Part shown: piece by piece, positions 1,345-19,361 of the stretch
How the letters are laid out: each line of letters opens with the position of its first letter
Position numbering within the stretch: position 1 is the stretch's first letter
IMG/VR virus record: IMGVR_UViG_3300007735_000798
Coordinates: 1 to 64,000 of that record
DNA: 64,000 bases
Source of the DNA: a virus
Direction: 5' to 3' (one strand)
Made by a program: the position numbers and the translations under genes
The notes under the pieces: model-generated
The model's input: the letters and a program-made list of their open reading frames with translations, nothing else
Told to the model about the DNA's origin: nothing
Databases searched by the model: none

Positions 1345-3879
1345 TTACTTCAAATCTCTCATATTTTTATATATTTTACAGTCTTGTCTTTTAATATTAT
1401 CTGCAAAAATAGCATCTGTTCCTTTTAAACGACCACGGATAATTACAATATCACCTTCTTCTGGAAAATTTCCACTATTATCATTTTTACATTCTTCAAA
1501 TAGGCCAAAACGGCCATCAAAAAGAAGGGCGGAAACTTTTCCAGTGTCATCTGCAACTGTTGCCTTAAAAAATTTATTACCATTTCTAGATTTAGATTGG
1601 CGAGTTGGTTCGATAATTTCACCAATTAAAAGAACTCTATCATCTTCTTCTTTTGTTTCAAAAGCGTCTTTAATTGTTATAAAATTATGATTACCCTGTT
1701 TAAAGATAGTTGTTAAGTTTTGACTATAACTAAATCCTAAACAATTTTTCTCATAAAAATAATTAGTAAGTGCTTCATTACGACTATTCAGCTCATAAAT
1801 TTGTTTATAAGGCGCGTATTTCTTTTTAAATGTCTCAAATCTTGATTCTTTAATTTGCTTTTTGTCTACCAACAATTTAATAATACTAAGAATATTCTTT
1901 TCTTCTCCTTCGTCATGCAAAGTTTTAACTAAACGTTTTTCTTTGTCAGTAAGAATGTTAAATGCCTGAGCTTGTAAAACCAAATGTGGACGAGAAGACC
2001 CAAGATCATCTAAAGCTCCAGCTTGAATAAGCGATGAAAGCACGCCGATATTCAAACCTGCCTGTTTAGCCGCAAGAAAACAATCTATCTTATTATCATA
2101 CTCTCCACGAAACTTAATTAATTTTTCAATAGAATTATCTGAAATACCCTTAATTGCACTTAATCCATATCTAATATTATTCCCCTCGACAGTAAATCCT
2201 ACATCTGATTTCAATAAATGTGGTGGAAGTAATTTTATGTTAAAATATGGCAACTCTCTTTGCATCTGCCTAATTTCGTCCATTGGGTCTGGAAGTTTTT
2301 GAATTGCATTAAGACATGCCGTAAAAAATTGAAGTGGGTATTTATATTTAAGATAAACTGTTAATGCCCCAAGATAAGCTACACAATATGAGTGCGATTT
2401 ATTAAAAGAATAGTCCGCAGAGTCTAACATAACTTTCCAAATTGCTTCTGCAACTTGTTCTCCAAACTTGTTTTTTTCACAAATTTCAAATACCTTATCT
2501 TTCCATTTTGGCATTTCATCGCGTTTCTTTTTACCAATAATACGGCGAATATATTCAGATTCATCTGGAGTAAAACCAACCGTAACAAGAGCTTGAATTA
2601 ATTGTTCTTGATAAAGTGGAAGGTTACGTGTTTCTGCAAATACTGGCGCAAGTTTTTCATGCGGAGCTTCTCCACTAAAATTGATGTAGTCTTTTTCATA
2701 CGCCAAAGCTCCAGGTCGTGCAATAGCATTTACGTCACTCAAATGCGCAATGTTGGCTGGTCGAATATTTTTACAAACACGATAAGCACAATCGGCACTA
2801 ATTTGATAAAGACCATATGGAAGTAAATCATCACGTTGAAGATGTTGGTAAACTTCTTCATTATCATCAAGATTAATATCCTCAAATTTTTCTGGAATTA
2901 ACTCAAATACATTTTTAATAATTTCATTACTAATAAGACCAAGAAGATCAAGTTTAATTCCAAACTTTGCCGCAGTATTCATTTCATATGAAATTGCAAG
3001 TTCACCTTCTTTATTAATCTCGACAGGAACAAATTTATCGAGTGGATAATAGGAAATGAAATAGCCACTAGCATGAGTCGATTTGCCACGAATCAGTCCA
3101 CGCAATTTTAATGCAATTTTATATGTTTCTGGATAACGATCCGCCCAATCACGAAATTTTTCACTATTCTTGTATGAATCTTCGATATCTTCAACAACCC
3201 CGAAATGTTTACCAATTGTATCCGCAAGATTGCTTGCGTCTTCCTCGCTAGCTTCATTAATAATTTTATAAACATCTTTTACAAGAATTTTACCAGAAAA
3301 AGTTGATACCGAAGAAATTTTGCAAACCTTATTTGGATAGCATTTCTTAAGCCATTCAATAATTTGGTCACGAACTCCGCCAAGATTAATATCAACGTCT
3401 GGAGCAAGATCACCTTGAATATAAGTAATACCATCGATAACCTCTTTCTTCGCACGGGTTTTAGAAATAAACCGAGTAAAGAAAAGATTTTTATCAATTG
3501 GGTCTACCCCAGTAACTCCAATCAAGTAGAAAATTAAACTACCAGCAGCCGAACCGCGACCCCAATCAATAAAAGCTCCAAGTTGACGAGCTTTGTTAAT
3601 TACTCTCCATACAAGAAGATAATAATCAATAAAACCAAGATCTTTTACAATTTCAAATTCTTCTTTAATTCTATTAAGATATATGGGTTTTTTCTTTTCT
3701 GAAATTTTATCACGATGTTTTCTCCATCCATCATTTACAAGTTGTTGCAAAAATTGTTCGTTTGTTTCGGCTTTCTCAGCAAGTAAGCCTTTTTCTTCTT
3801 TTGTAAAAGAGATATTTGGCAACCGCACAAGGTTGACATTTTTCATTTCAATATTTTTAAACTGTTCTAAAAATTTCAT
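1345..3879 (-). CDS. dnaE: DNA polymerase III alpha, polymerase half (DnaE-type)
   Basis: An 844-residue C-family replicative polymerase subunit lacking its own PHP domain. The catalytic aspartates are present: D161 and D163 in 'APDVDINLGG' and D311 in 'KLDLLGL', matching the PDxDxD and DFLGL motifs of bacterial DnaE. A 'GRGSAAGS' loop precedes them. Finger-domain and HhH-like segments follow (residues about 400-640), and a C-terminal OB fold starts near 755 with 'RVLLIGEIIEPTRQ'. The missing N-terminal PHP half is encoded at 4498-5250, with a proofreading exonuclease gene in between. The ATG overlaps the end of the exonuclease gene by 4 bases, so the three are probably translated together. 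It should be the phage replicative polymerase. Confidence 0.93.
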   Translation of the reverse strand: MKFLEQFKNIEMKNVNLVRLPNISFTKEEKGLLAEKAETNEQFLQQLVNDGWRKHRDKISEKKKPIYLNRIKEEFEIVKDLGFIDYYLLVWRVINKARQLGAFIDWGRGSAAGSLIFYLIGVTGVDPIDKNLFFTRFISKTRAKKEVIDGITYIQGDLAPDVDINLGGVRDQIIEWLKKCYPNKVCKISSVSTFSGKILVKDVYKIINEASEEDASNLADTIGKHFGVVEDIEDSYKNSEKFRDWADRYPETYKIALKLRGLIRGKSTHASGYFISYYPLDKFVPVEINKEGELAISYEMNTAAKFGIKLDLLGLISNEIIKNVFELIPEKFEDINLDDNEEVYQHLQRDDLLPYGLYQISADCAYRVCKNIRPANIAHLSDVNAIARPGALAYEKDYINFSGEAPHEKLAPVFAETRNLPLYQEQLIQALVTVGFTPDESEYIRRIIGKKKRDEMPKWKDKVFEICEKNKFGEQVAEAIWKVMLDSADYSFNKSHSYCVAYLGALTVYLKYKYPLQFFTACLNAIQKLPDPMDEIRQMQRELPYFNIKLLPPHLLKSDVGFTVEGNNIRYGLSAIKGISDNSIEKLIKFRGEYDNKIDCFLAAKQAGLNIGVLSSLIQAGALDDLGSSRPHLVLQAQAFNILTDKEKRLVKTLHDEGEEKNILSIIKLLVDKKQIKESRFETFKKKYAPYKQIYELNSRNEALTNYFYEKNCLGFSYSQNLTTIFKQGNHNFITIKDAFETKEEDDRVLLIGEIIEPTRQSKSRNGNKFFKATVADDTGKVSALLFDGRFGLFEECKNDNSGNFPEEGDIVIIRGRLKGTDAIFADNIKRQDCKIYKNMRDLK

Positions 3880-4508
3880 ATCTCAATAGTCAAAATTTGC
3901 TTTTTAAAAATCTCAAGGCATTTTTCATTATCATATACTGCATCGTGCGCTTTTAAATCATTATATTCAATATCATAAAGGCCGCAAAGATGCTTAACTG
4001 AAGTCTTAACGCCTTTTTTAACATAATGATACATTTGATATTGCCATGCAGTTCTATTTTCTGGAACTGTTTTCAATCCCATGTATATTCCTTTTTGAAT
4101 ACATTGTATATCTAAAACACGATTAAGATAAGAAAAATCAGATTGTAGCCCCAAAATTCTTCTCAAGGTATTAATGACATAAACATCATAACCAAAAAGG
4201 TTTGCGCCAACAATAAGATATTCTGGATTATATAAATAACTTTCAAAAAGTTCTAATACTTCTTTTGGATCTTTTGCATTTTCTTTCCAAACATTATAAT
4301 CAAAACGGGTAATTCGTGCGGCATCAGCAGATACATTTAAATCTTTCCAATAAAGCATATGATCTTCATTTTTAACAATTTTATGATCTTCATATACTAG
4401 CCATGAAAGTTGAAATGGTCTAGCCAATGCCAAAGCAAGACTTTCTGTTTCTGTATCAAAAACAATATATTTTTGTTTTTTATTAAAACGTAAAAGATTA
4501 CTTTGCAT
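3876..4508 (-). CDS. DEDDh 3'-5' proofreading exonuclease
   Basis: A 210-residue exonuclease of the DnaQ/PolC type. The metal-binding residues are D18 and E20 in 'FDTETESL', D108 in 'NLFGYDVYVINTL', and H188 with D193 in 'HDAVYDNEKC', which is the DEDDh set. I used the ATG at 4508 rather than 4547 because it cuts the overlap with the upstream gene to 11 bases and leaves the core domain intact. It sits exactly between the two halves of the polymerase III alpha chain and overlaps both, so it very likely supplies proofreading to that polymerase. It could also act as a general 3'-5' exonuclease. Confidence 0.88.
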   Translation of the reverse strand: MQSNLLRFNKKQKYIVFDTETESLALALARPFQLSWLVYEDHKIVKNEDHMLYWKDLNVSADAARITRFDYNVWKENAKDPKEVLELFESYLYNPEYLIVGANLFGYDVYVINTLRRILGLQSDFSYLNRVLDIQCIQKGIYMGLKTVPENRTAWQYQMYHYVKKGVKTSVKHLCGLYDIEYNDLKAHDAVYDNEKCLEIFKKQILTIEI

Positions 4509-5250
4509 TTTCTTGCCATGCCTCCATACAAAATTCTTGACTACCAAAATGTCTTAATTCTGGCTTTTGAAAAGTCGTTCTATTAAGAATACAACGATAA
4601 GTCATATATGCTTTAAAATCTTTACGTTCACGATAATAAATTGTTTTAGATGAAATAATTTCATGATCTTTAATTGTTTCTTGTATATGATTATTTAACA
4701 AGTCATCAAATGGTAAACCATTATTTTCTATAAAATAAGTTGGTTCAGTAAAATCTAATTCTGGAACGCATTGACGACCATATAAAAGATTATAATAAAC
4801 ATATGAATCATAAAATGGAATAACTAATGAAAGATTTTTACTCCAATACTCTTTAATAGTTTTAAAGTCTAATCTTGGACGACCTTCATAAATACCATCT
4901 GTTGAAGATATATTATGCAATTTAATCAAATCATTAAAAGAATTTTTTGTGGCGAAAATAATGAATTTACTTTCTGTAATTTCCGATTCTTTTGTCTTAT
5001 TTGTAATATCTTGGCAAATGTTTAATCTATAACCAAATCTCAAATTTAGATTGGCTTTCTTTGCGTTTTCGTATGCTTCAACTAACCCAGTAAGAGTATT
5101 GTCAACAATAAAGACATCTTGTAAACTATAATCTTTAGAAATATCAAAAATAGAATCTGGATGATTTTCTTCTCTAGAATCTTTTTCTGTATATGGGTCT
5201 AGAGTAAGAACTGAGGTCAAAGAGTAATTCGATCTAAAAATTGGTAACAT
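4498..5250 (-). CDS. Polymerase III alpha PHP half, catalytic motif lost
   Basis: A 250-residue protein corresponding to the N-terminal PHP region of DnaE. The start, 'MLPIFRSNYSL', aligns with the bacterial motif in which two histidines (HxH) precede S-x-Y-S-L; here those positions are I4 and R6, so the metal-binding HxH is absent. Later segments such as 'FATKNSFNDLIKLHNIS' and the end 'LRHFGSQEFCMEAW' match the order of the PHP domain up to its join with the polymerase domain. It is the first gene of the polymerase set and overlaps the exonuclease gene by 11 bases. It is probably a structural partner of the polymerase half, with no PHP nuclease or phosphatase activity. Confidence 0.75.
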   Translation of the reverse strand: MLPIFRSNYSLTSVLTLDPYTEKDSREENHPDSIFDISKDYSLQDVFIVDNTLTGLVEAYENAKKANLNLRFGYRLNICQDITNKTKESEITESKFIIFATKNSFNDLIKLHNISSTDGIYEGRPRLDFKTIKEYWSKNLSLVIPFYDSYVYYNLLYGRQCVPELDFTEPTYFIENNGLPFDDLLNNHIQETIKDHEIISSKTIYYRERKDFKAYMTYRCILNRTTFQKPELRHFGSQEFCMEAWQENAK

Positions 5251-5275: not shown

Positions 5276-6265
5276 TTAAAAGTCAAAATCTTTATTTGAT
5301 TCTTTCCAAGCTGGACAACCTTCATATTTTCTTATTTCAATTCGGTAACCTGATTTTAAATCTTTTTCTTTAAAATCTTCATTTGCAAAAATTGATTTAA
5401 TAATTTTACCATCTTTATCTATAAGAACTTTATAATCAATAGCATTTAAATATGGGCAACGCCAACCAGATTTTGTCTGACACATCCATTTTTTACTAAA
5501 TTCATGTGCGGCAAAATTAGAATGAGCTTTTTTTTCATCAAAATTTTGTAAATAACCATTAATATATTCCAAATAATGTTCAAAACCACGAAGTTCTTCT
5601 TCACTAAAATGTGGGCATTCTCTTTCTGGATCATCTGGATATCTCAAAAATAAAAATTTAACTAAAACATCTTTTTGTTTTTGATATTTTTTACGAACAG
5701 CTAATGAATACATCATTCCTTGAAGATTACTTTCAAGCTCATCCCCTTTAAAAGCTTTTTTACTTGATTTAAAATCACGAATAATCATTTGTTTTTTATC
5801 TTTAAAAATACGATCAACAAAACCACCTATTCTATATTTAGGGGATTCGTTTGTGATATCAAATTCCCATTCTGATCCAATAACTTTATATTCTCCAATA
5901 AAATCAAATTTTAATCCGACTAAAATCATCTCATCTATACATTTAAGATTGGTGATTTCTTGACCACTTTTTTTAAGAGGTTGAACCATTTCGTCTAAAT
6001 CCAATCCTTCGCGTTTGGCTGCCTTTATAATTAATTTAAAAATTGCGGGGTATTTGAGACATGTTTTACTTTTTACAATTTTTTTAACGTAATGCTCATG
6101 TCTAGGATTGGCTAATACCTCAAAGATTAAATGGGCAATTGAACCACGCATGGCTCCAGAATTATTTTTTTGTGGTAATTTAAGATTATAATTACAATAA
6201 TACATCCACGAACATGATTGTAATGTCTTAATTCTACTAGCCGAAAGTTTAATTAAATCGCTCAT
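5276..6265 (-). CDS. PD-(D/E)XK exonuclease, Cas4/RecB family
   Basis: A 329-residue nuclease of the RecB/Cas4 class. Visible motifs in order are H45 in 'GSIAHLIFE', D151 in 'GGFVDRIF', D164 and K166 in 'IRDFKSSKK', and a Q-x3-Y motif (Q182, Y186). Cysteines at the N-terminus (C18, C24) and near the C-terminus ('WMCQ', 'WRCPYL') could bind an iron-sulphur cluster as in Cas4 and AddB, but the spacing is not proof. It stands between the polymerase and HNH genes in the replication block. It probably resects DNA ends for RecA-dependent recombination or packaging. Confidence 0.85.
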   Translation of the reverse strand: MSDLIKLSASRIKTLQSCSWMYYCNYNLKLPQKNNSGAMRGSIAHLIFEVLANPRHEHYVKKIVKSKTCLKYPAIFKLIIKAAKREGLDLDEMVQPLKKSGQEITNLKCIDEMILVGLKFDFIGEYKVIGSEWEFDITNESPKYRIGGFVDRIFKDKKQMIIRDFKSSKKAFKGDELESNLQGMMYSLAVRKKYQKQKDVLVKFLFLRYPDDPERECPHFSEEELRGFEHYLEYINGYLQNFDEKKAHSNFAAHEFSKKWMCQTKSGWRCPYLNAIDYKVLIDKDGKIIKSIFANEDFKEKDLKSGYRIEIRKYEGCPAWKESNKDFDF

Positions 6266-6268
6266 AAT

Positions 6269-6859
6269 TTATTTATATTTCCTACCATATTTAAAACCTT
6301 TTGGTAATTTTTTAGGTTTTTCAACAAAAAAACTTTTTTTTAACTTATCTGAATATATCCATACTCTTTTTTTTCTTTTTATTTTTCCAGATTTTACTTT
6401 GTCCCAATAATCATTTGCAATTGTTTTTAAGTGACCATTTTCTGCATTTATTTTACCCTGTGCTTTACCACCAAGAATACATATTTTACTTCTAAGTTTG
6501 GGATCAAAAAAAGCATTTGTTTGCAATTCTTTGCATCTTTTCGCAGACATTTTTCCAAAAAGTGTACGTTGTTCCTTTGTTAAAGCTTTTGATATTCTTT
6601 GTATATGTCCAGATTCTGCATTTTTTTTACCAGCAATTTTACCCCCTAAAGTAGATAAAGCCTGTGGCCCCCTAGGGTCTTTAGACAAAAGATAATAAGC
6701 GCATAAATCTTGTTGTTTACCATATTTTTTATATAAATCTAGATGCGCTTTAGCATGTTGCTTTGGCGTTAATTCTATAATATTATCTGGAGTATCTTTT
6801 CCACCCATATGTTTAGGAATTATATGATGTCTATGTACAAATTTTTTTAGTTTCCGCAT
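6269..6859 (-). CDS. Free-standing HNH endonuclease
   Basis: A 196-residue protein starting with a typical HNH nuclease core: 'VHRHHIIPKHMGG', then 'NIIELTPKQHAKAHL', which supplies the two histidine clusters and the central Asn. The rest is basic and holds two copies of a short segment of the form G-G-K-x2-G-K-x-N-A-E-(S/N)-G-H, near residues 72 and 130, likely DNA-binding repeats. It sits between the RecB-type nuclease and the dCMP deaminase with 3- and 9-base gaps. No intron is seen. It is best read as a homing-type mobile gene. Confidence 0.88.
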   Translation of the reverse strand: MRKLKKFVHRHHIIPKHMGGKDTPDNIIELTPKQHAKAHLDLYKKYGKQQDLCAYYLLSKDPRGPQALSTLGGKIAGKKNAESGHIQRISKALTKEQRTLFGKMSAKRCKELQTNAFFDPKLRSKICILGGKAQGKINAENGHLKTIANDYWDKVKSGKIKRKKRVWIYSDKLKKSFFVEKPKKLPKGFKYGRKYK

Positions 6860-6868
6860 GAATGATAC

Positions 6869-7273
6869 TTACACTTGAAATATAGAAATATCACATTGAT
6901 TTAAAAATTTAATACCAGAATCATCTCTATATATATATTTATAATAAACAGTTTTAATACCAGATCCATGTATGGCTTTTGCACAGGAAATACATGGGGC
7001 ATGAGTTATAAACATAATAGAATTTTCGCCAGATTCTGTGCTTTTAGCTAATTTAAAAATGCAATTCATTTCAGCATGTGTTACTTCTGGTTTCGTATTA
7101 TTGTGCTCATCCTCACATGTATTATCCCATCCTTCTGGAGTTCCATTATAACCAATAGAAATAATCCTATTATTCTTTACTACGACCGCTCCAACCTGAA
7201 GTCGTTTAGCGCTTGAAAGTTTCGCAAAACGTTCGGCTACATCCATATAAGCTTGTATCCATTTATTTTTCAT
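6869..7273 (-). CDS. dCMP deaminase
   Basis: A 134-residue zinc-dependent cytidine/deoxycytidylate deaminase. The zinc ligands and catalytic glutamate are visible: H66-A-E68 in 'VTHAEMN' and C94-x2-C97 in 'HAPCISCAKAI'. The N-terminus ('AERFAKLSSAKRLQVGAVVV') is that of the dCMP/ComEB deaminase family. It converts dCMP to dUMP, the precursor for thymidylate. The partner thymidylate synthase is not in this window. It lies 1 base from the primase gene and forms one unit with primase, helicase and dNMP kinase. Confidence 0.9.
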   Translation of the reverse strand: MKNKWIQAYMDVAERFAKLSSAKRLQVGAVVVKNNRIISIGYNGTPEGWDNTCEDEHNNTKPEVTHAEMNCIFKLAKSTESGENSIMFITHAPCISCAKAIHGSGIKTVYYKYIYRDDSGIKFLNQCDISIFQV

Positions 7274-7274
7274 A

Positions 7275-8168
7275 TTATAATTGGTTATACCATTCTTTAT
7301 TTTCTTTTACCGTTTGATCACCAAAATCATTTTTAAATGGATGATAAATATAAATTTGGGCGGGGTCAAAAAACTCTACAAGTGTTGAGCGTATTTTTGT
7401 AGCTGCTTTTTGCCCCGCCTTGTTTTCATCATTGTTGGTAGCAACGATGATTTGATCGGGATCAAGGCGAATTATCGCTTTTAACAGGCCTCCACCAGCC
7501 TCAGTCCCGAAAGTAATCCCCGTATTTTTGATTCCGCTTTCCCAAAGAGAAAGCATATCACCAATACTTTCAACAAGTATTAACTGTTTTTTTTCTTTAA
7601 TAAATTGATGAGTAAATATAAATGGATATGCCCACTCATTTTTACGTCCAATATGTTTCCATTTAATTTTAGATTTTCCAGTAACATCACGACCAGAAAA
7701 TCCTTGAATTTTTTTTCGTGCATCAAAAATTGGAAACACATATCTTTGATACATTTTACCAGTTGTACATAATCCACCACCAAAAACTTTTAAAGTTTCA
7801 TCGCTAACGCCACGACCATTCCAATAAGAATAATCTTGTTTTAAATCAACAAGATCATTATTTGAATAATATTTAGATGTTTTATTAAAAGGATCTTCAA
7901 CGTCATTATTAAATCCTGTATAATATTTGGCTTTATCTTCTAAAATTTGCTCTACTTGTTTTATATCTTTAAGATTAAGAGTCATCTTTAGAAACTCCCC
8001 CAAAGAAAATACATTACCAGTAACAAAATCTTTTACAATATTATTTTGCAAATAAATTGCTACCGATCCGCTATCGTTGCCACCACGATAGCGAGCACAA
8101 CAAGTAAGATAAGTTCCATAATTTCTAGGATTACAACCAGCATCCTTTAAAAGTTCTAAAAGTCTCAT
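7275..8168 (-). CDS. DnaG-type DNA primase (TOPRIM)
   Basis: A 297-residue primase. The N-terminal 60 residues look like a reduced zinc-ribbon domain ('YLTCCARYRGG' then 'SVAIYLQNN'). The middle contains 'YVFPIFDARKKIQGFSGRDV', typical of the DnaG RNA polymerase core. The TOPRIM motifs are the glutamate in 'ILVESIGDMLSLW' and the acidic 'VATNNDENKAGQKAA'. At under 300 residues it is much shorter than bacterial DnaG and lacks a C-terminal helicase-binding domain. Its ATG overlaps the helicase stop by 4 bases, consistent with a primase-helicase pair. Confidence 0.87.
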   Translation of the reverse strand: MRLLELLKDAGCNPRNYGTYLTCCARYRGGNDSGSVAIYLQNNIVKDFVTGNVFSLGEFLKMTLNLKDIKQVEQILEDKAKYYTGFNNDVEDPFNKTSKYYSNNDLVDLKQDYSYWNGRGVSDETLKVFGGGLCTTGKMYQRYVFPIFDARKKIQGFSGRDVTGKSKIKWKHIGRKNEWAYPFIFTHQFIKEKKQLILVESIGDMLSLWESGIKNTGITFGTEAGGGLLKAIIRLDPDQIIVATNNDENKAGQKAATKIRSTLVEFFDPAQIYIYHPFKNDFGDQTVKENKEWYNQL

Positions 8169-9637
8169 ATAATTTCTTCTCGATCTTCATTATTTTCACG
8201 ATCAAAAATATTAACATTAATACCATTTTGATTGTTGACGATGTCTTGAAGAGTACCTTTTTCTTCGACATGAAAATTTTCAACATTAAATGAAATAAAA
8301 TTCTTACGATATTGAGCGCGACCATTTTCAATAACACGAACAAGATCATTATGACCATGAGCATGTTGGCCTTGATAACGAGATGCAAGTTCAATCATTT
8401 TATGAGTACCAAATTGTGCGCCATCTTCTGCTTGTTCTTCTAAAGTCTTACGTCTAAAAATTCCAACATAAGCAGCAAACCATTGAAGACGATCTGACTG
8501 TGCAATTGCGCTTGAATCATCAGCACCATTTTCAGCACTACGATTTAACTGGCAAGCTGTAAGAATTGGAATATTCAAACGAACAGAAAGTTCTTTAAGC
8601 CTATCTACTTTATCACCAATGAGTTGATATTCCTGCTTTCCCTTTTCCATTTCTCCAGTAAGTTTAATATAATCATAAACGACAATTGCTGGATTGCCAC
8701 GACCAACTTGACCAAGATACCAACGTTGAATAATTGATTCAATTTCAGACACTGGTTTTCCAGAAACTTGTAAGTGTTTAACCTTACCTTGGGCTTTAGA
8801 AAGTTCAGATTTTTTACTATTCCATTTAGCCAATAGTTCCTTATTATTTTTAAAATTACCAGTTTCAAGCCACCACATCGGAATACCAGTAATACTACTA
8901 GCAATACGAAAACGAATTACATTTGTTTGCATTTCTGTATCAAGAATAAGAGCTTGAAGGTTTGGATTAATAAGAGTTGCTTTAGAACAAATATCGCTCA
9001 AAATTGTTGATTTACCATGTTTTGGACGACTAACCCATGCGTAAAGTTCTCCAGGTCTCAATCCACCATACATTTTATTAAATACTTTATATGGGGTTAA
9101 ATATCCAGTTTCTGTAATTGGATTATTAGCGCGCTCTTCAACCATTTGCTCAATATCATTAAAAAGATCTTCTGGATTAGATTCCAAATCATAAGCAGTA
9201 ATCTTATCATTATACATTTTATCGGCCAGTGTAATAATTTCATCTGCTGATTTGTCTCCAGAGTTTGACATTGAATCTGCAATTAATGATGCAGTTTCGG
9301 CAATCTCACGACGAATAGTTATTGTTTTTAAATTTTTACAAGCATCGATTAAAGACTTTTGACTAATTTTAAGAAATGCTAAACTTTCGATATAATCAAA
9401 AACATTAAAATCTTGTTTAAAATTAATTCCAAGATTTTTAATTTTCTCACCAATAATTACTGGATCAAGTGGTTGGCTTTTCATTATTTGACCCTTGACC
9501 ACACTAAAAATTGTTTTATGACCATTCGAAAAGTCATTCTCATTAATAAAATGAGACACCTCAAAAAATACCTGTGGATATTTTAAAAAACCAGCCAATA
9601 CATGTTTTTCGATTTGAACGCTACGAATTGAAGACAT
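8165..9637 (-). CDS. dnaB: DnaB-type replicative helicase
   Basis: A 490-residue hexameric helicase of the DnaB family. The N-terminal domain ('EKHVLAGFLKYPQVF') is followed by a RecA-like ATPase core. Walker A is 'SRPKHGKST' at residues 203-211, after the usual 'GGLRPGELYAW'. Further conserved elements are 'LILDTEMQ' and 'PILTACQLNR', the latter containing the sensor/H4 region. Length matches the family. It unwinds the fork for the phage polymerase. It lies between dNMP kinase (1-base gap) and primase (4-base overlap). It has no visible promoter of its own; the likely one is at 10242-10270. Confidence 0.93.
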   Translation of the reverse strand: MSSIRSVQIEKHVLAGFLKYPQVFFEVSHFINENDFSNGHKTIFSVVKGQIMKSQPLDPVIIGEKIKNLGINFKQDFNVFDYIESLAFLKISQKSLIDACKNLKTITIRREIAETASLIADSMSNSGDKSADEIITLADKMYNDKITAYDLESNPEDLFNDIEQMVEERANNPITETGYLTPYKVFNKMYGGLRPGELYAWVSRPKHGKSTILSDICSKATLINPNLQALILDTEMQTNVIRFRIASSITGIPMWWLETGNFKNNKELLAKWNSKKSELSKAQGKVKHLQVSGKPVSEIESIIQRWYLGQVGRGNPAIVVYDYIKLTGEMEKGKQEYQLIGDKVDRLKELSVRLNIPILTACQLNRSAENGADDSSAIAQSDRLQWFAAYVGIFRRKTLEEQAEDGAQFGTHKMIELASRYQGQHAHGHNDLVRVIENGRAQYRKNFISFNVENFHVEEKGTLQDIVNNQNGINVNIFDRENNEDREEII

Positions 9638-10271: not shown

Positions 10272-10685
10272 CTAAATTTCTATATCAAATTTTTCTTTTA
10301 TCCATTCGGGACTTAATAAATGAATTTCATTTTCAAAAATTTCAATAACACGAAATCCATTCATTTCAAGCCAACTATATTTTTGTAAATCACGTTTAAC
10401 GCTATTTTTAAATCCAGTTTTTGTTCTATGAAAATGTTTTACAAATTTATCATGTTGTAATCCATGCGTTTCAACTGCAATTTTTTTGGTAAAATTAATA
10501 AAATCACATTTCATTCTTGTTCCAAAAACTGGAAATTCTTCAACTACTACATGTGTTTTCCAATAATTTTCAAAAAATTTTTTGACATTAAATTGTACTT
10601 TACTTTTACATGGATTATTCCATTTCGCAAGATATTTGTTAATATTTTTATTAACATCTTTACCAAAAATATTTTTAAATTTCAT
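10272..10685 (-). CDS. Small Vsr/DUF559-like endonuclease
   Basis: A 137-residue basic protein resembling the Vsr/DUF559 branch of PD-(D/E)XK nucleases. The core is 'TRMKCDFINFTKKIAVETHG' followed by 'QHDKF', in which D and the E-x-H-G step match the family's D...E-x-(D/N)-G-x-x-H pattern, and then 'RDLQKYSWLEMNGFRVIEI', the family's usual C-terminal strand and helix. It stands alone between the kinase promoter and the sugar island. It might nick recombination intermediates or act on host DNA; that is inference. Confidence 0.7.
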   Translation of the reverse strand: MKFKNIFGKDVNKNINKYLAKWNNPCKSKVQFNVKKFFENYWKTHVVVEEFPVFGTRMKCDFINFTKKIAVETHGLQHDKFVKHFHRTKTGFKNSVKRDLQKYSWLEMNGFRVIEIFENEIHLLSPEWIKEKFDIEI

Positions 10686-11484: not shown

Positions 11485-12300
11485 TTATTTTTTCCAAGTG
11501 TTAATTGCGCTAAAATAATGAAATCCAAAACTAGTCTTGTTATTATAGTCTATTTCGTCTAATGGATCAATACTAAATTTAGATGCTTCTTCTATTGTTG
11601 GTATATTTTCTTTAAAATAATTAGCTATAACAGAAAAAAATAAATCTTCTTGTGGCTTTTTATCATTGTCTGCAAATTTTTCTCTAAAAATAAAATTACT
11701 AAAATTTTCTGAAGCCCATTTGCAAAAAGATGCTTTTCTGTAACTAAATCCGCCATTTCCAATCCTAACTGGACTTAAAAATTGTTTCCAAGTATTCTCA
11801 TGATAAATTTCCATTGCTGGCATATGTAACCAAGGAGATCCAACATAAATAAAATTATTATTTAATAAATATTCTTCGTAACCATTTTTCATTAACATCG
11901 CATCGGGTTGTAAAGTAATTGTATGTTCTATTTCCTTGGGAAGGTTAAAATAAACATTATTAATATAATAATTTGAATATTCTTCTAGAGAATTTAATTG
12001 TTCAATTTTATTTATTTTTATATTATATTTTTCTATTAACTCTAAATTATCATTAAGAAAACTTTTTGTATTATAAACAAAAGCATAAATTGGATATGAG
12101 TATTCAGAAAAAGTATAAAAAGAATGAAAACAAGCATAATCTTCTAATTTATTGATTTCACGATTACGCCCATCTACAAAAATTCCAGCAAATAAATTGC
12201 TACTATTTTTAGGTTTTGATTTTAAAGAAAGTATATCATTACATACATACTTAATAAAATTTTGATCTACATTTGTTCTATTTTTGTATAAAAGTTCCAT
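11485..12300 (-). CDS. DUF5672-family putative glycosyltransferase
   Basis: A 271-residue protein. The central block 'TITLQPDAMLMKNGYEEYL', then 'FIYVGSPWLHM', then 'VRIGNGGFSYRKASF' is the hallmark of the DUF5672 family, found in glycan clusters and thought to be glycosyltransferases. The ending 'SFGFHYFSAI' also fits. Its start overlaps the upstream PLP dehydratase gene by 23 bases, indicating translational coupling. The sugar specificity is unknown. Confidence 0.75.
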   Translation of the reverse strand: MELLYKNRTNVDQNFIKYVCNDILSLKSKPKNSSNLFAGIFVDGRNREINKLEDYACFHSFYTFSEYSYPIYAFVYNTKSFLNDNLELIEKYNIKINKIEQLNSLEEYSNYYINNVYFNLPKEIEHTITLQPDAMLMKNGYEEYLLNNNFIYVGSPWLHMPAMEIYHENTWKQFLSPVRIGNGGFSYRKASFCKWASENFSNFIFREKFADNDKKPQEDLFFSVIANYFKENIPTIEEASKFSIDPLDEIDYNNKTSFGFHYFSAINTWKK

Positions 12301-13459
12301 TAAATTTTTTCAATATTTTTATAGTGGAAAATTTCAATGATGGAAATATGCCTACATAAAAACCATTTTTATGTAAAAATTCACTATTTTTGAATTCTTT
12401 ATAATCTCCGTATTTTTTATAACATGTTTGTCTTAATAAATTTCCAGAAATAATTGGTCGCGTTTCAATTCCAATTTTTTGACAAAAAGAAAATATTTTA
12501 TTAATAAATTTTATATTTTTTGAAAGTATTGGAAAACAGAATGGAACAGCAGTTCTTTCTGCAAAATTTTTAGGTAAAATTAAATTATCTTTTCCAATTA
12601 GTTCAATAATTTTATTAGAAATTTCATGTCTTTTATTTATATAGCCATTTACTCTATTAAAATCTAATAGACCAATAAATGCATGGATATCAGTATTTCT
12701 AAAATTATTTCCAACTATATTAAAATCAAATAATTGATTTACATCTGAATTTTTATATGATTTAATATCAATTCCATACATTGATAGACTTCTTGTCATG
12801 CCATGATTTCTGGCCATTAAAAAGTAATTATATTCAGCTTCGGAATTAGTAAATACAAATCCGCCTTCAACACTTTGAAGCTGATGTCCAAAATATGTGC
12901 TAGTTGTACTAGTAAAGTAAGAAGAAATATTTTTTCCATTATATAATCCTAATGTATTTTCACAGTTATCTAGTAAAATACGAACATTATATTTTTGTTC
13001 AAGATATTGAAGTTTTTTAATATCTGGAACTTGGCCAATTAATGATACACATAAAATAGCAGCAACTTTTTTATGATTTTTTTCTAAATATTTTTCTGTT
13101 AAAGAAAGGTCTAAACAAAAATCATCTAGAGAGATATCAATAAATCTAGGAATAAACCCTTCTCTTAAAAATGGAGAGATAGACGTTGTCCAAGTTGTTG
13201 ATGGAAAAATTATTTCTTTTTTCTTTGAATTTTTAAGATTATCTTTTAAATACATCGCCATTAATGTATTAGCTACAGATCCATTTGCTACAAATACAGC
13301 ATATTTAGAACCTACAAATTTTGCAAATTTTTGTTCAAATTTTTTAACATATTTGCCTTGCGTCCAAAAATTTCTAATATCTAAAAAAAACAAACAAATT
13401 TTTAGTCTATCCCATAAAGTAAAACTAGAATTATTAAGGGGCCAAATAAATTTATTCAT
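12278..13459 (-). CDS. ColD-like PLP sugar 3-dehydratase (catalytic His)
   Basis: A 393-residue DegT/DnrJ/EryC1/StrS-fold enzyme. In aminotransferases of this fold a lysine binds PLP six residues before the E-G-G motif. Here that place is H192 ('YFGHQLQSVEGG'), as in ColD, the GDP-4-keto-6-deoxymannose 3-dehydratase, and in E1 dehydratases. Other ColD-like stretches are 'GKYVKKFEQKFAKFVGSKYA', 'LLDNCENTLG', 'GIETRPIISGNLLRQ' and 'FLHKNGFYVG'. The predicted reaction removes the 3-hydroxyl of a 4-keto-6-deoxysugar using glutamate for PMP regeneration. A Gmd that could make the substrate is encoded at 22599-23651. It overlaps the neighbouring transferase genes on both sides. Confidence 0.82.
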   Translation of the reverse strand: MNKFIWPLNNSSFTLWDRLKICLFFLDIRNFWTQGKYVKKFEQKFAKFVGSKYAVFVANGSVANTLMAMYLKDNLKNSKKKEIIFPSTTWTTSISPFLREGFIPRFIDISLDDFCLDLSLTEKYLEKNHKKVAAILCVSLIGQVPDIKKLQYLEQKYNVRILLDNCENTLGLYNGKNISSYFTSTTSTYFGHQLQSVEGGFVFTNSEAEYNYFLMARNHGMTRSLSMYGIDIKSYKNSDVNQLFDFNIVGNNFRNTDIHAFIGLLDFNRVNGYINKRHEISNKIIELIGKDNLILPKNFAERTAVPFCFPILSKNIKFINKIFSFCQKIGIETRPIISGNLLRQTCYKKYGDYKEFKNSEFLHKNGFYVGIFPSLKFSTIKILKKFNGTFIQK

Positions 13460-14201
13460 GATAAATTGTAGGTAATTGTTGATTGTTTTTCAAATAAAAG
13501 TCTAGATTAAATTCTAATTTATTACTAATATAATTCCATTTATAACCACAATCACCAAAATGTTTCATTTGATACTCATATTTATTTTTACCATTTGAAT
13601 GTAGCCATGTCATATGTTTAATATGAGCAACTTCTTTTGGAATTTCTAAATTTTGTAAATTTTTATAGTTATAAAGTTTATTGTCTATAGATTTATAACA
13701 AATATCATTGTCCCAATAGAAAGAATCAATATTTAAAATATCTGATTGTGTTCTGAAGATTCTTGGAGGACAAAATCCATCAATCCATTGGCTTCCATCA
13801 AAAATATAATTTTTAAAATTAATACTATACCAATAGTTATTCGGATTTTTATTTATATAATTAATAATATTATTAATGTCCGATACTGTATATAACTCAT
13901 CTCCATCGACAATCCAAATAATGTCAGAATTTTGATTCTTTAAATATTCTAGACAAAAATTTCTTGCTTCTGATTCTTTTACAAATTTTGGCTCTTTAAA
14001 TAAAATATCAATATCTTTATCTTCTAATATTTTTGTTGTATTATCCTGATAAAAACTAATAGATTGGTACTCAGTAAATGGAACTGAAACTGCCGCAATA
14101 TTAGATATAATATTTTTTTGTTTAGATTCAATAAATGAATCTAAGCTTTTTGCAACAAAAGTTTCGCAATTATATGCACAATATATAATACCAATTTTCA
14201 T
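13452..14201 (-). CDS. GT-A glycosyltransferase
   Basis: A 249-residue transferase-like protein beginning 'MKIGIIYCAYNCETFVAKSL', a typical family 2 start, with the acidic motif 'DIIWIVDGDELYTV' near residue 105. The later 'HIKHMTWLHSNGKNKYEY' is seen in related proteins of uncharacterised glycan clusters. It overlaps the upstream gene by 4 bases and the dehydratase by 8. It is cytoplasmic with no membrane segment. Donor and acceptor are unknown. Confidence 0.75.
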   Translation of the reverse strand: MKIGIIYCAYNCETFVAKSLDSFIESKQKNIISNIAAVSVPFTEYQSISFYQDNTTKILEDKDIDILFKEPKFVKESEARNFCLEYLKNQNSDIIWIVDGDELYTVSDINNIINYINKNPNNYWYSINFKNYIFDGSQWIDGFCPPRIFRTQSDILNIDSFYWDNDICYKSIDNKLYNYKNLQNLEIPKEVAHIKHMTWLHSNGKNKYEYQMKHFGDCGYKWNYISNKLEFNLDFYLKNNQQLPTIYHE

Positions 14202-15130
14202 GTTTCTATTTGATTAAATTTAATATTATATTGTAATATTGTTCCAAGGTAATTATTTGGAAATCCAGTTCCACCACTTAAATAGTCTTTAAATGAAAAC
14301 TTATATCTTTTAGGAACAATATCTGTTATTAAATCTTGGCCTAAAACTTCTATTTGAAATAATTCACTTAATCTAAATTCTAGTTCTACCATTTCTATAA
14401 AATAATCATCTGGAATGATTTCTTTATTTTTTATTTTTGTCATATAATCTATCATTCCATCTAAATTAGAAATATCAATATTAAGATGTTCAATGCAATA
14501 TATTTGAAATTTTTTTCTTAAATTTTCATGGTGATTAACCACTTCTTGTCCATATTTTCCATATACTAATTGGGTATCATTACCAAGAAAATAACATAAA
14601 TAATATTTTGAACCATTTATTGACCCATAATATTTTGGAGTTTCTTTGCGACGATTAATTATATATTTATCTTTATCTGGTAATGTTATTATTTTCCCAT
14701 TTATATTTGTTAACCCCCAATGAACGGCTCCATAAAATTCCATATATGGATTATATTTAAAAATATAAGGCCTTTGATCCCAATAAAGAGCACCAATTTG
14801 GTTTTCTTCAAAAGATTGAAGCATGTGCGGTAATTGTTCTACGAATAGGTCCGTCATAGATTCTGGAGAGTCTAAATAAACGCAATATTGTCCATTTTTA
14901 ATTCCACCGTAAAAAAGTAAATGATTCATTAAGAATGCATGATTTGTTGTCCATTCTTGCGTTAAAATTTTTCCATTCCCTTTATTTTTTTCAAGTAGTT
15001 CTATTGTACCATCATTGGATGGTAAATTAACTAAAGCAATCACTCCATCAAAAGTTGGATAAATATTTTTTAACATGAAAGAAATATGCTCTTTTCTTTC
15101 TTGTGTCATTGTTAATAAGAGCGGTTTCAT
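14198..15130 (-). CDS. Glycosyltransferase-like protein with C-terminal module
   Basis: A 310-residue protein in two parts. Residues 1-185 look like a family 2-type transferase ('MKPLLLTMTQERKEHISFML', 'NLPSNDGTIELL', 'YCVYLDSPESM'; the usual DxD is replaced by D-S-P-E). Residues about 189-310 form a second module clearly related to the stand-alone 141-residue protein at 18259-18684, sharing G-Q-x-V-x-(N/D)-H-H-E, 'NKEIIP' and an (R/K)-(W/F)-S-F-K-(N/D)-Y-L core. It is coupled by 4-base overlaps on both sides. The module's function is unknown. Confidence 0.65.
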   Translation of the reverse strand: MKPLLLTMTQERKEHISFMLKNIYPTFDGVIALVNLPSNDGTIELLEKNKGNGKILTQEWTTNHAFLMNHLLFYGGIKNGQYCVYLDSPESMTDLFVEQLPHMLQSFEENQIGALYWDQRPYIFKYNPYMEFYGAVHWGLTNINGKIITLPDKDKYIINRRKETPKYYGSINGSKYYLCYFLGNDTQLVYGKYGQEVVNHHENLRKKFQIYCIEHLNIDISNLDGMIDYMTKIKNKEIIPDDYFIEMVELEFRLSELFQIEVLGQDLITDIVPKRYKFSFKDYLSGGTGFPNNYLGTILQYNIKFNQIET

Positions 15131-16002
15131 TTCTTATATTCATTATATAAATTAATAATATTTTTAGCAATTGTTTCTTTATTCATTATTTCTTTATATT
15201 TTTTACCATATTCTAAACTTATATTTTGATAATATAAATAATTTTTATTTATTTCTATCATTTTCTGAATAAAAGACTCTGGATTGGGTTGGCAAATAAA
15301 TTCTTTCGGGCAAAATTCTATTGCAGTTGGATTATCATCACATGTAATTGGGATACACCCCGCAATCATTGCTTCAATCATCGGAAGTCCTAATCCTTCA
15401 AATTTTGATGGAAATAATAAAAATTTTGAAGAATTATAAAGAATATTTAATTGCTCATCTGGAATAATCCCTATATATTTTCCAAAATTTGGATTTTCAG
15501 ATCCACAAATGATTAAATTTTCAATGAATTCGGGATAATGTATAAAAGTGTCTCTAATTAAAGAAAATCTTTTTCTTGCATCATTTGCTCTTCCAACATA
15601 TAAAAATGGAATTGTTTTTTTTATTTCTTCATTATAAAATATATCTTTGACTGGATTATAAATAATATGCGCTTTTAAATTTATACTATCTAAAATTTGT
15701 TCTTGAACTGTTTGTGATATACAAGTTATTAAATCAGCTTGTTTTAATTGATTTTCTACTTTATTTAAATCATAAGATGGATTACCAATTTGTAAATCTA
15801 AAACATTCAATATAATAAAAGGTTTTTTTTCTTGCTCATTTGCGTATGCCAGAATATCATCATACATATCATTATTAGAGTATATGATATCAGGATTTTC
15901 ATTAACTATTTCATAACCGATAGATCGTAAACCATTATCAATACGAGATATTTGATCTAAAGTATTATTTCTCCAGCCAAAAGTTTTAACTTTAAGGCTC
16001 AT
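15127..16002 (-). CDS. GT4-type (GT-B) glycosyltransferase
   Basis: A 291-residue GT-B enzyme. The C-terminal donor domain is well preserved: 'FLYVGRANDARKRFSLI', then 'LLFPSKFEGLGLPMIEAMIAG', which contains the E-x7-E motif of family 4 transferases, and 'CDDNPTAIEFC'. The N-terminal acceptor domain is short. It starts 11 bases after the methyltransferase gene's stop. It probably adds a sugar to a growing glycan from a nucleotide-sugar donor. Confidence 0.85.
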   Translation of the reverse strand: MSLKVKTFGWRNNTLDQISRIDNGLRSIGYEIVNENPDIIYSNNDMYDDILAYANEQEKKPFIILNVLDLQIGNPSYDLNKVENQLKQADLITCISQTVQEQILDSINLKAHIIYNPVKDIFYNEEIKKTIPFLYVGRANDARKRFSLIRDTFIHYPEFIENLIICGSENPNFGKYIGIIPDEQLNILYNSSKFLLFPSKFEGLGLPMIEAMIAGCIPITCDDNPTAIEFCPKEFICQPNPESFIQKMIEINKNYLYYQNISLEYGKKYKEIMNKETIAKNIINLYNEYKK

Positions 16003-16013
16003 TTATATTTAAA

Positions 16014-16613
16014 TTATGTAAAAATTACCCAACTTGCATTTCGTTGTGAAATTTCTTTTATATTATTTTTAATAGCAAATTCTTCTAAAGCTTTTTGCAC
16101 GCCTTCTCCATATATATCATGGCCTGCAAACATTCCATTAGATTTTATTTTTGGATACCATGCATTTAAATCTTTTGATACTGATTCATAAGAATGTCCA
16201 GCATCAATAAAAATAAAATTACAAGATTTATCTTTAAAATATTTAGGAGCTTCCCAAGAATATTCTCTGATTGGTTTTATAATATTGCCACCTGGAGCAT
16301 ATTTAATATTATTTTGAAATTGCCAATATAAAGCATCTTGTCCACATCTATTCATATAATCTATAACTTTTTCTCCCCAAGGCATGTTATTATTTTGATT
16401 ATATTCATCGTCTTTTGTTAATTCCCAAACGTCCACACAATTAAATTGAAGTTTTTTATTAGATTTATATATTTCTTCAGCCATAAAACATGCGGATTTT
16501 CCTAAAAAAGAACCAATTTCTACAAGTATATCTCCATCTTTAGATTTATTAATTGCTTCTAAATAAATATCTGCAAAATCAAACCATCCACATATATGTT
16601 CATAGTATCTCAT
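16014..16613 (-). CDS. Class I SAM-dependent methyltransferase
   Basis: A 199-residue methyltransferase of the Methyltransf_24/TylF-like type. Motif I is 'DILVEIGSFLGKSACFMA'. The acidic residue after strand 2 lies in 'FNCVDVWEL'. 'CNFIFIDAGHSYESVSKDL' is the characteristic D-x-G-H-x-Y motif, and 'KSNGMFAGHDI' follows. It probably methylates a sugar in the island's product. A near-consensus promoter (TTGACA, 17 bases, TATTAT) inside the 3' end of the upstream gene ends 10 bases before the ATG. Confidence 0.82.
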   Translation of the reverse strand: MRYYEHICGWFDFADIYLEAINKSKDGDILVEIGSFLGKSACFMAEEIYKSNKKLQFNCVDVWELTKDDEYNQNNNMPWGEKVIDYMNRCGQDALYWQFQNNIKYAPGGNIIKPIREYSWEAPKYFKDKSCNFIFIDAGHSYESVSKDLNAWYPKIKSNGMFAGHDIYGEGVQKALEEFAIKNNIKEISQRNASWVIFT

Positions 16614-16614
16614 A

Positions 16615-17439
16615 TTATTTATGATAATATAACAATTTATTTAAATTGTCAAATATTAAATCATTATTTATATTTTCTGCATGTTCCGCCTCTAAATATA
16701 TGGCATTTTTATTTAATGGTTCATATACTTTTGGTGTTAATAAATTATCATAATGATAACCATATAAACCTAAAACTGGATGCTGATATGCGCTAGCTAC
16801 CCAAGACATTCCACCATCTAAACAAATTAATAATTGCGTAGAAAGCATTATTTTTACTGATTCGAAATAAGATAAACCATTAATTTTTTCACATCCTTTA
16901 ATTATTTTTTCTGAATCTGCGCCTAATTGAATAACTTTAATATTTTTGGTATTTAAAAAATTTACAATTTCTTCCCATTTTTGATATGAAATATTTTTCT
17001 TAGTCCACGCTGTATATGGAGCTATAGAAATATAATTTTTATATTGTTCATGTAAATCAAAATATTTATTTAATATGCAGTTTAAATTCTCAGGCGGTAC
17101 AAGACCATTCATTAAACATGCTGCTTCTGTTTGGTGATTTACTAAATTATACCAACAATGATCATTAGGATGCTTTGGCATAGGATCTAAAATTAGATTA
17201 TAATTATTTGATCTTAAAAAATTTATATCATTTTGATTTGGCCAATTATCATATTGATCCCATATATGAACATCATCTATATATGGATGATATTTAAAAA
17301 GATCTACCATATCTTGGTATTGTTTATTTATTCCTAAAGTAAAATGACTTTGGGGAAATCTTTCTTTAATAGCTTTTGCAACTACCGTTCCAATAATAAG
17401 ATCTCCTCTTTGTCCTTGATTTGTTCCAATAATTTTCAT
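16615..17439 (-). CDS. GT9 (heptosyltransferase-like) glycosyltransferase
   Basis: A 274-residue GT-B protein of family 9. The N-terminal 'GTNQGQRGDLIIGTVVAKAI' has the family's G-D-x-(I/L) donor-side loop, and the C-terminal half holds 'YISIAPYTAWTKKNIS', 'KVIQLGADSE' and 'LICLDGGMSWVASAYQHPVLGLYG'. The D-G-G-x-x-x-x-A-S pattern replaces the usual D-T-G-x-x-H. It is shorter than heptosyltransferases (about 350). It overlaps its upstream gene by 4 bases, and the promoter of the methyltransferase lies over its 3' end. Confidence 0.8.
   Translation of the reverse strand: MKIIGTNQGQRGDLIIGTVVAKAIKERFPQSHFTLGINKQYQDMVDLFKYHPYIDDVHIWDQYDNWPNQNDINFLRSNNYNLILDPMPKHPNDHCWYNLVNHQTEAACLMNGLVPPENLNCILNKYFDLHEQYKNYISIAPYTAWTKKNISYQKWEEIVNFLNTKNIKVIQLGADSEKIIKGCEKINGLSYFESVKIMLSTQLLICLDGGMSWVASAYQHPVLGLYGYHYDNLLTPKVYEPLNKNAIYLEAEHAENINNDLIFDNLNKLLYYHK
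16624..16652 (-). promoter_or_regulatory. Sigma-70-like promoter for methyltransferase gene
   Basis: Leftward: -35 TTGACA (16647-16652), 17-base spacer, -10 TATTAT (16624-16629), then 10 bases to the ATG at 16613. The predicted leader is only about 3 bases. The promoter lies inside the last codons of the GT9 gene. Confidence 0.6.
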
Positions 17440-18242
17440 TCAATATGTAAAATTTTAATATCTTTATTAATATAAATTTTATTATATCCTAAATTATTTA
17501 ATTCTTCACAAATAACATATGTATCACAATCAAATCTATTATATCGTTTATTAATATAATCAAATCTAACTCCTTTTACAAACGGTTCTGCATTATATAC
17601 ACAAAATGAATTATATGTAGAATAAAATGGAATATTTTGCTGTTCTTTTTCAAAATAATTTAAATATTCATCTCCAGATATTGGCTCAATTAAATGTTCT
17701 GGTTTTATTCGTGTTGCCCAACCGTCTCTACATCCATGCAGCCAACCATCAAAAGGTTTCGAATAAAGATTTTCTAACCATCTATGACAATTAAAATTAT
17801 AATTTTTTAAACTTTCATAATTACATCTTAAACTTATTCCAGAATAAACATCAAACTGAGAATCTATTAGATTTACAACTTGTTCTGGAATATAAAAAAT
17901 ATCTGATTCTATCCAAATGATTTTATCATAAATAGATAAATCTTTAACTTGATCTAATACTTGATTTCTATATAAAGATAATAATTTTACTCTATTTTCT
18001 TCAGCTACTGATCCATATTTGGGAGTATTTAAATCTGTAGTTAAAACAAAATTATTGTTAAATAATTTATTATAATTAAAATTTTTTAAAATTAATTTTG
18101 AATTATCTTTTGAATCATTTTCTAAAATTGAGATATCAAATGTATCTCCAGGTCTTAAAGAAATAATTTTTTCTATTTGTGAAAAATAATTTTCTAAAAA
18201 TATTTCACTATCTCTGATTATTGAACAAATTAATATATTCAT
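17436..18242 (-). CDS. CAP59/GT69-like glycosyltransferase
   Basis: A 268-residue protein resembling the cryptococcal mannosyltransferase (CAP59, GT69) family. It shows 'DISILENDSKDNSKLIL', 'LLSLYRNQVLDQV', and 'IIWIESDIFYIPEQVVNL', in which E-S-D takes the place of the acidic metal site, followed by a conserved 'GCRDGWATR' stretch. It may transfer mannose or a related sugar. It has an ATGA-type overlap with the GT9 gene and a 16-base gap upstream. Confidence 0.7.
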   Translation of the reverse strand: MNILICSIIRDSEIFLENYFSQIEKIISLRPGDTFDISILENDSKDNSKLILKNFNYNKLFNNNFVLTTDLNTPKYGSVAEENRVKLLSLYRNQVLDQVKDLSIYDKIIWIESDIFYIPEQVVNLIDSQFDVYSGISLRCNYESLKNYNFNCHRWLENLYSKPFDGWLHGCRDGWATRIKPEHLIEPISGDEYLNYFEKEQQNIPFYSTYNSFCVYNAEPFVKGVRFDYINKRYNRFDCDTYVICEELNNLGYNKIYINKDIKILHIE

Positions 18243-18258
18243 ATATTAAAAATGAATT

Positions 18259-18684
18259 TTACTTTCCATACCATTCTAAATATTTAATATAAGTACCTTT
18301 ATACTCTTTATTCATAAGACCATCATTAAATTTTAAATAATTTTTAAAACTCCAACGAAATCTTTTTTCATTAATATCTTCTTGATTAAGTTTTAATATC
18401 TCACTTTGAAAAAGTTCTGATAATATAAATTCTGTCTCTGTAATATCTATAAATGCAGACTCTGGAATAATTTCTTTATTATAGATTTTTCCATAAAAAT
18501 TAATCAAACTATTAATATCATAATTAATACCAAGTTTTAAATTACAATATAGACGAAAACGTTGGCGTATAGATTCATGATGATCTATAACATTTTGCCC
18601 AAAATTACCATAAATATATACAGATATATTACTTTGTTCTGGAACAAACCATTGTTCTGCTAATTCTTTTGATGTTAAATTCAT
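18259..18684 (-). CDS. Stand-alone copy of a glycosyltransferase C-terminal module
   Basis: A 141-residue protein. From residue 23 on it aligns with residues about 189-310 of the protein at 14198-15130: both have a Y-G-x-(F/Y)-G-Q start, an H-H-E step, 'NKEIIP', 'ELFQ' and an R/K-W/F-S-F-K motif near the end. The first 20 residues differ. It overlaps the upstream transferase by 4 bases. No catalytic motif is visible. It could be an accessory or substrate-binding module, or the remnant of a second two-part enzyme. Confidence 0.6.
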   Translation of the reverse strand: MNLTSKELAEQWFVPEQSNISVYIYGNFGQNVIDHHESIRQRFRLYCNLKLGINYDINSLINFYGKIYNKEIIPESAFIDITETEFILSELFQSEILKLNQEDINEKRFRWSFKNYLKFNDGLMNKEYKGTYIKYLEWYGK

Positions 18685-19358: not shown

Positions 19359-19361
19359 ATT

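Follow-up and report, generated by a model that had tools for sequence, protein, structure and literature searches.

In almost all other known relatives, the PHP domain, the exonuclease and the polymerase domains of the replicases considered here occupy a single protein or a pair of proteins. In PolC the exonuclease lies inside the PHP domain, in the DnaE1 of Bacteroidetes it occupies the N-terminus, and the cyanobacterial DnaE is split by an intein (PMC3919608). In E. coli, the PHP domain of the alpha subunit carries the binding site for the proofreading subunit epsilon (PMC3919608). The PHP active site has been lost in DnaE2, in most DnaE3 and in part of DnaE1 and PolC, its loss alone being not unusual, and a single proofreader is described for each DnaE1-only system (PMC12926913). 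A layout that matches none of those reported for PolC, Bacteroidetes DnaE1 or the intein-split DnaE is found in the IMG/VR virus record IMGVR_UViG_3300007735_000798 (104,736 bp), whose first 64 kb were analysed (the window; G+C 28%). Here, a predicted PHP protein (P0003), a predicted DEDDh exonuclease (P0002) and a polymerase (P0001) are encoded by three separate open reading frames (ORFs) of the minus strand. This trio is probably the replicative core of a group of uncultured tailed phages, with a DnaE-type polymerase that underwent one fission at the PHP/palm linker and a DEDDh gene located between the halves. No account of a PHP/exonuclease/polymerase three-gene replicase was found in the literature searched, whose coverage was partial.

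The genes succeed each other as PHP (4498-5250), exonuclease (3876-4508) and polymerase (1345-3879), and their order, coordinates and overlaps of 4–11 bases agree with those given in an earlier note on this DNA, made from the sequence alone. Eleven bases (4498..4508) are common to the stop region of the PHP gene and the start of the exonuclease gene, and the exonuclease stop and the polymerase start share the four bases ATGA (3876..3879). These values refer to an exonuclease starting at ATG 4508 (210 residues), which is most likely the actual start rather than the upstream TTG 4547 (223 residues); the relatives begin at the equivalent place.

Relatives were searched in viral contigs with P0003, P0001 and the exonuclease and polymerase alignments, reaching polymerase identities down to ~38–44%. 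Further relatives came from a scan of genome contigs, among them metagenome-assembled genomes labelled as Flavobacteriaceae, Halobacteriovorax, Verrucomicrobiales and others, conflicting labels that probably reflect the binning of viral contigs. The trio is carried by a large, uncultured group of bacterial viruses, most of them aquatic, belonging to a tailed phage lineage. No cultured phage with the trio PHP protein or exonuclease was found in the collection searched, where the few matches were a bacterial contig and one distant exonuclease.

By profile search, all three genes are present at 186 loci (137 non-redundant). The PHP–exonuclease–polymerase order is kept, as three genes, in all 137 non-redundant loci, which puts it beyond chance, and the fused forms that the earlier note had proposed to look for do not occur at any of them. 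Eight polymerase loci of the clade lack a partner, each of them beginning close upstream of the genes present. The PHP and exonuclease genes overlap by 1–26 bases in 111 of the 137 loci, and the exonuclease and polymerase genes by 1 or 4 bases in 102. In most relatives without overlap, ORFs have been inserted at one of the two joints, including LAGLIDADG homing endonucleases (L006, L022) and a ClpP-like protease (L149). The pairwise distances of the three proteins are correlated (r = 0.84–0.90), a level reached in none of 300 permutations, which give at most 0.07. The recurrence of the same three ORFs at these loci in many metagenomes rules out an assembly error or a single gene with a frameshift.

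The polymerase subunit (P0001, 844 residues) comprises palm, thumb, fingers, HhH and OB regions of a DnaE-type family-C polymerase, without PHP. It matches PF07733 (E 1e-48), PF17657 (E 1e-24) and HHH_6 (residues 547–632, E 4e-18), and aligns with Taq DnaE over Taq residues 381–951 (E 5e-67). The presence of the three catalytic aspartates, as previously noted, is borne out: D161 and D163 in PDVD (codons at 3391..3399), aligning with the DnaE motif PDFD/PDID, and D311 in KLDLLGL (2947..2949), aligning with KFDFLGL, are invariant in 15 aligned relatives. An OB fold at residues 759–821 (1417..1605) matches PF01336 just under the cut-off of 27 (25.7 bits, E 1.1e-5) and sits C-terminal of HhH, which is the domain order of DnaE, unlike that of PolC. 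On the phage polymerase profile phrog_405, P0001 covers positions 316–1090 (E 7e-152) and P0003 covers 61–285, the two segments being adjacent and without overlap.

Two maximum-likelihood polymerase trees were built. Both place the trio polymerases in a clade of their own (100/100), located with phage DnaE proteins on the DnaE side, and PolC in a separate 100/100 group across the dividing branch. Profiles of the clade score ~460–770 bits on full-length DnaE versus 122–176 on PolC, and P0001 gives no PolC-family profile match at E 0.1. Profile, phylogeny and the C-terminal OB fold consequently class the polymerase as DnaE-type and not as PolC, judged from its sequence. The PHP domain that DnaE proteins carry in the same chain is absent from P0001 and encoded by a separate gene, as in 137 of 137 loci; the protein is a split derivative of DnaE, not a DnaE protein proper. 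Since PolC, intact bacterial DnaE and nearly all of the phage DnaE rows examined have PHP and polymerase in one chain, the split is the derived state, and since the trio polymerases form a single fully supported clade, it is an old, selected architecture rather than a recent break. The three-gene arrangement is confirmed as real, old and conserved, and as derived from DnaE, not from PolC. Three apparent close phage relatives were rejected: Pseudomonas phage Y1 is bacterial DNA, with lpxA/lpxB/rnhB-like ORFs alongside, MT838320 is a bacterial DnaE with a frameshift break, and Staphylococcus phage SA 1306 Kay was taken as S. aureus chromosome. They entered the comparison solely as rows of bacterial DnaE, or were omitted.

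The PHP subunit (P0003, 250 residues) corresponds to one complete DnaE-type PHP domain. It matches PF02811 at 28.7 bits, above the cut-off of 26.4, and residues 49–254 of Taq DnaE by phmmer (E 9e-4). Its AlphaFold model, with a predicted local distance difference test score (pLDDT) of 92.7, aligns end to end (residues 1–250) with DnaE PHP domains (Z 23.1–23.3), including 230 residues superposed on Taq DnaE 7–259 at 2.5 Å (Z 23). The kinship of the 250-residue protein with the PHP domain, which the earlier note had made its decisive point, therefore holds. It is unlikely that a free-standing PHP protein was recruited, with the exonuclease, beside a polymerase whose own PHP domain had been lost. 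The identity to solved DnaE PHP domains, 15–20%, is low enough for a separate recruitment to be hard to exclude by sequence, but the model is far closer to these domains than to free-standing PHP proteins (Z 12 or less), the C-terminus is the DnaE-type EFY/EFC motif of the PHP–palm linker, and the PHP distances track those of the polymerase (r 0.90).

The nine ligand positions of active bacterial PHP domains (signature HHDHEH[C/H]DH) were compared with 92 rows of the clade. In P0003, eight of the nine are seen substituted, in agreement with the inactive PHP half described before, and the first falls in an alignment gap. From the second to the ninth, the clade carries K/R, K/R, D/N, R/K, K, F, S/T and Y/L/F, with K or R at H2 in 88, at D3 in 80 and at E5 in 91 of the 92 rows, and K at H6 in 91. 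The replacement of HxH by I4 and R6, also claimed earlier, is sustained for R6, whereas I4 lies in the gap and fits by context. P0003 is accordingly predicted to be a PHP pseudoenzyme, with a complete fold and its metal ligands lost. A Pseudomonas DnaE row also has Arg at three of these positions. The compared fused phage DnaE proteins (e.g., that of Moorella phage MTATph1) retain the PHP ligand motifs, and for this reason the loss of the PHP site can be said to accompany the acquisition of the exonuclease, which fits the single-proofreader pattern reported in PMC12926913.

The exonuclease subunit (P0002) matches phrog_192, "DNA polymerase exonuclease subunit" (E 5e-11), and PF00929 at 20.6 bits, under the cut-off of 24. 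Residues D18, E20, D108, H188 and D193 make up the full DEDDh set and are invariant in 81 relatives, which agrees with the DEDDh exonuclease previously placed between the halves. The AlphaFold model (pLDDT 94.0) superposes 168 residues on E. coli epsilon (2gui) at 2.1 Å (Z 19.2). The assignment of P0002 as a DEDDh 3´-5´ exonuclease, weak by sequence, is clear from the modelled fold and the five invariant residues. Against this model, epsilon, Cas-linked DnaQ and ExoI reach equal Z scores; some 200 residues at ~18% identity are too little to separate epsilon from other DEDDh groups.

The directly supported features, namely separate, overlapping and co-inherited genes, predicted folds, active-site states, affiliation with DnaE and a single origin within the clade, allow a mechanism to be proposed. 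According to the alignments and the structure comparison, a stretch equivalent to Taq DnaE ~260–300 is missing from both halves, which locates the break in the PHP–palm linker. A phage DnaE gene would have undergone one fission at this linker, a DEDDh proofreader would have come to lie between the halves, and the PHP active site would have been lost. Coupled translation from one mRNA would then yield three chains. The PHP protein would bind the polymerase without a covalent link, at the place that the PHP domain has in fused enzymes, and would serve as a structural subunit or as one that binds the exonuclease. Proofreading in trans would fall to the DEDDh protein, which would stand in for the dead PHP site. 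The conserved basic residues of the former PHP metal pocket are a putative contact for the exonuclease. More tentatively, the free-standing pseudoenzyme could serve as a bridge, its Lys/Arg-lined ex-metal pocket binding the tail-less exonuclease or DNA and holding the exonuclease by the polymerase. If this were true, proofreading would depend on a protein that elsewhere is only a domain.

The genomic setting also bears on the role of the trio. Ahead of it, an operon-like run of the minus strand contains a DnaB helicase (8165-9637), a Toprim primase (7275-8168), a dCMP deaminase (6869-7273), an HNH ORF (6269-6859) and, directly upstream of the PHP gene, a PD-(D/E)XK nuclease (5276..6265; PF12705, E 8e-19). 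This nuclease adjoins the PHP gene upstream in 102 of the 130 non-redundant loci with enough sequence (median gap, 31 bases), and is a conserved neighbour or partner of the replicase operon, outside the replicase core. An accessory polymerase, devoted for example to repair or translesion rather than to replication of the phage, is an improbable role for the trio. DnaE2-type accessory polymerases with an inactive PHP do exist (PMC12926913), but the trio includes a conserved and apparently active DEDDh proofreader, it belongs to the same run as the nuclease, deaminase, primase and helicase, and PF07733 is matched only once in the whole record.

It is still less probable that the exonuclease was already inside the PHP domain and that a single PolC chain broke into three genes. 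All three parts occur in PolC, and the exonuclease weakly matches the PolC exonuclease regions (profile E 1e-5; NF001688 E 2e-4). However, such a fission would leave two PHP pieces around the exonuclease. In the PolC rows with an exonuclease, the PHP profile match is broken at position ~79 and the OB match is N-terminal, and in the solved PolC (9qpc/9qrn) the PHP alignment spans residues 340–785, with the exonuclease (~418–602) inside. In the trio, by contrast, the PHP domain is uninterrupted, the exonuclease gene comes after it and the OB fold is C-terminal in P0001, a polymerase without PolC-family match that lies outside the PolC group. Between the two origins offered by the earlier note, fission of a PolC-like layout or independent assembly, fission is retained as the best reading, PHP and polymerase being joined in nearly all relatives examined, and the PolC-like layout is discarded. 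Least credible is the joining of the halves into one chain by protein trans-splicing or frameshifting: trans-splicing exists in the lineage, as L093, L148 and L217 have a split intein within the polymerase gene, but P0001 and P0003 give no intein family match, both halves end or begin in domain sequence, and the exonuclease gene always present between them bars a simple frameshift fusion.

Several points weigh against the single fission of a phage DnaE with a proofreader between its halves. P0002 ends four residues past the position equal to epsilon 180 and has no counterpart of the C-terminal tail with which E. coli epsilon attaches to the PHP domain of alpha, so the contact of the phage exonuclease with PHP must differ from that of epsilon. 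The weak matches to the PolC exonuclease region leave room for a PolC origin of the exonuclease gene, polymerase aside. The exact sister of the trio clade among the fused phage DnaE proteins has weak support. The record, itself incomplete, yielded no beta clamp. Strict translational coupling is not essential, given the cargo genes at one joint in part of the relatives. Finally, we infer the physical association of the three proteins, which probably reassemble non-covalently into a replicase core.

Besides the inserts already mentioned, SET-domain-like ORFs, an FkbM-like methyltransferase and a GMP reductase were identified by eye at the joints, and an ORF of 66–96 residues without assigned function is present at a joint in ~25 loci. 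Loci with cargo at the PHP/exonuclease or the exonuclease/polymerase joint include L006, L022, L149, L155, L194, L201, L216 and L137. The split intein of L093 (6630-10508), L148 (6618-10514) and L217 (5971-8955) breaks the polymerase gene at YSFNK|SHS, with TIGR01445 matching the N-parts of L093 and L148, and TIGR01443 the C-parts of L148 and L217. L093 and L148 carry an endonuclease-like ORF in the gap, that of L093 with a NUMOD3 motif and a weak REase match. The split-intein site of cyanobacterial DnaE is presumably about four residues upstream of this break. DnaE is also broken inside the polymerase region in Bacillus phage KLEB27-3, where an HNH gene occupies the gap, and in Rossellomorea phage phiT1 (L278 2909-7279, L280 3176-6458), so that phage DnaE has been repeatedly fragmented.

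The replication genes of the window are flanked by the HNH ORF (6269-6859) and a homing-endonuclease ORF (10272-10685). Between them and the RecA-like genes, a series of glycosyltransferase- and aminotransferase-like ORFs, identified by eye, occupies positions 12278-20024. Outside the window, at ~89,000-92,000 of the record (G000:C1; L276 5000-8000), the G+C content climbs from ~0.27 to 0.47 and does not fall back over the remainder of the stretch read; given this rise, the record may be a chimeric assembly.

Whether PHP serves family-C polymerases as a proofreader, a scaffold or an anchor for the exonuclease is difficult to test while it forms part of the same chain. In this lineage PHP is separate, devoid of its site and kept in every checkable member, so that a scaffold role can be tested directly with and without a single protein. 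Furthermore, exonuclease presence and PHP inactivation go together outside PolC too. This replicase, which belongs to a widespread phage lineage without cultured members in the collection searched, departs from the textbook layouts.

The nearest annotated relatives of the trio polymerase are the fused phage DnaE proteins, such as those of Moorella phage MTATph1, Streptomyces phage Bartholomune and Brevibacillus phage Sundance (~26–34% identity). They share the DnaE-type PHP, palm, thumb and fingers, but in one chain, with PHP ligand motifs largely intact and no exonuclease gene between PHP and polymerase. Rhodococcus phage Trina also has separate PHP (303 residues) and polymerase (956 residues) genes (SEA_TRINA_101 and 102), with a 4-base overlap; however, no exonuclease lies between them and the PHP ligands are intact. 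As the Trina polymerase clusters with the fused one of Bartholomune (100/99), the Trina split is independent of that of the trio. In Pbunavirus, as in the trio, the phage encodes a DnaE (DNA polymerase III alpha) next to a separate gene for an epsilon-type exonuclease, although alpha is unsplit and the epsilon gene is located upstream of it. Bacteroidetes DnaE1 likewise unites, in one unit, a DnaE-type polymerase with a DEDDh proofreader dedicated to it, but there a linker of ~60 residues joins the exonuclease to the N-terminal side of PHP (PMC3919608). The cyanobacterial split-intein DnaE is a two-gene DnaE as well, but its break falls inside the polymerase region and is spliced by the split intein, whereas the PHP/polymerase joint of the trio is intein-free. 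PolC of Bacillota, like the trio, brings together PHP, DEDDh exonuclease and polymerase, but does so in one chain, with the exonuclease within PHP, an N-terminal OB fold and a separate clade of its own.

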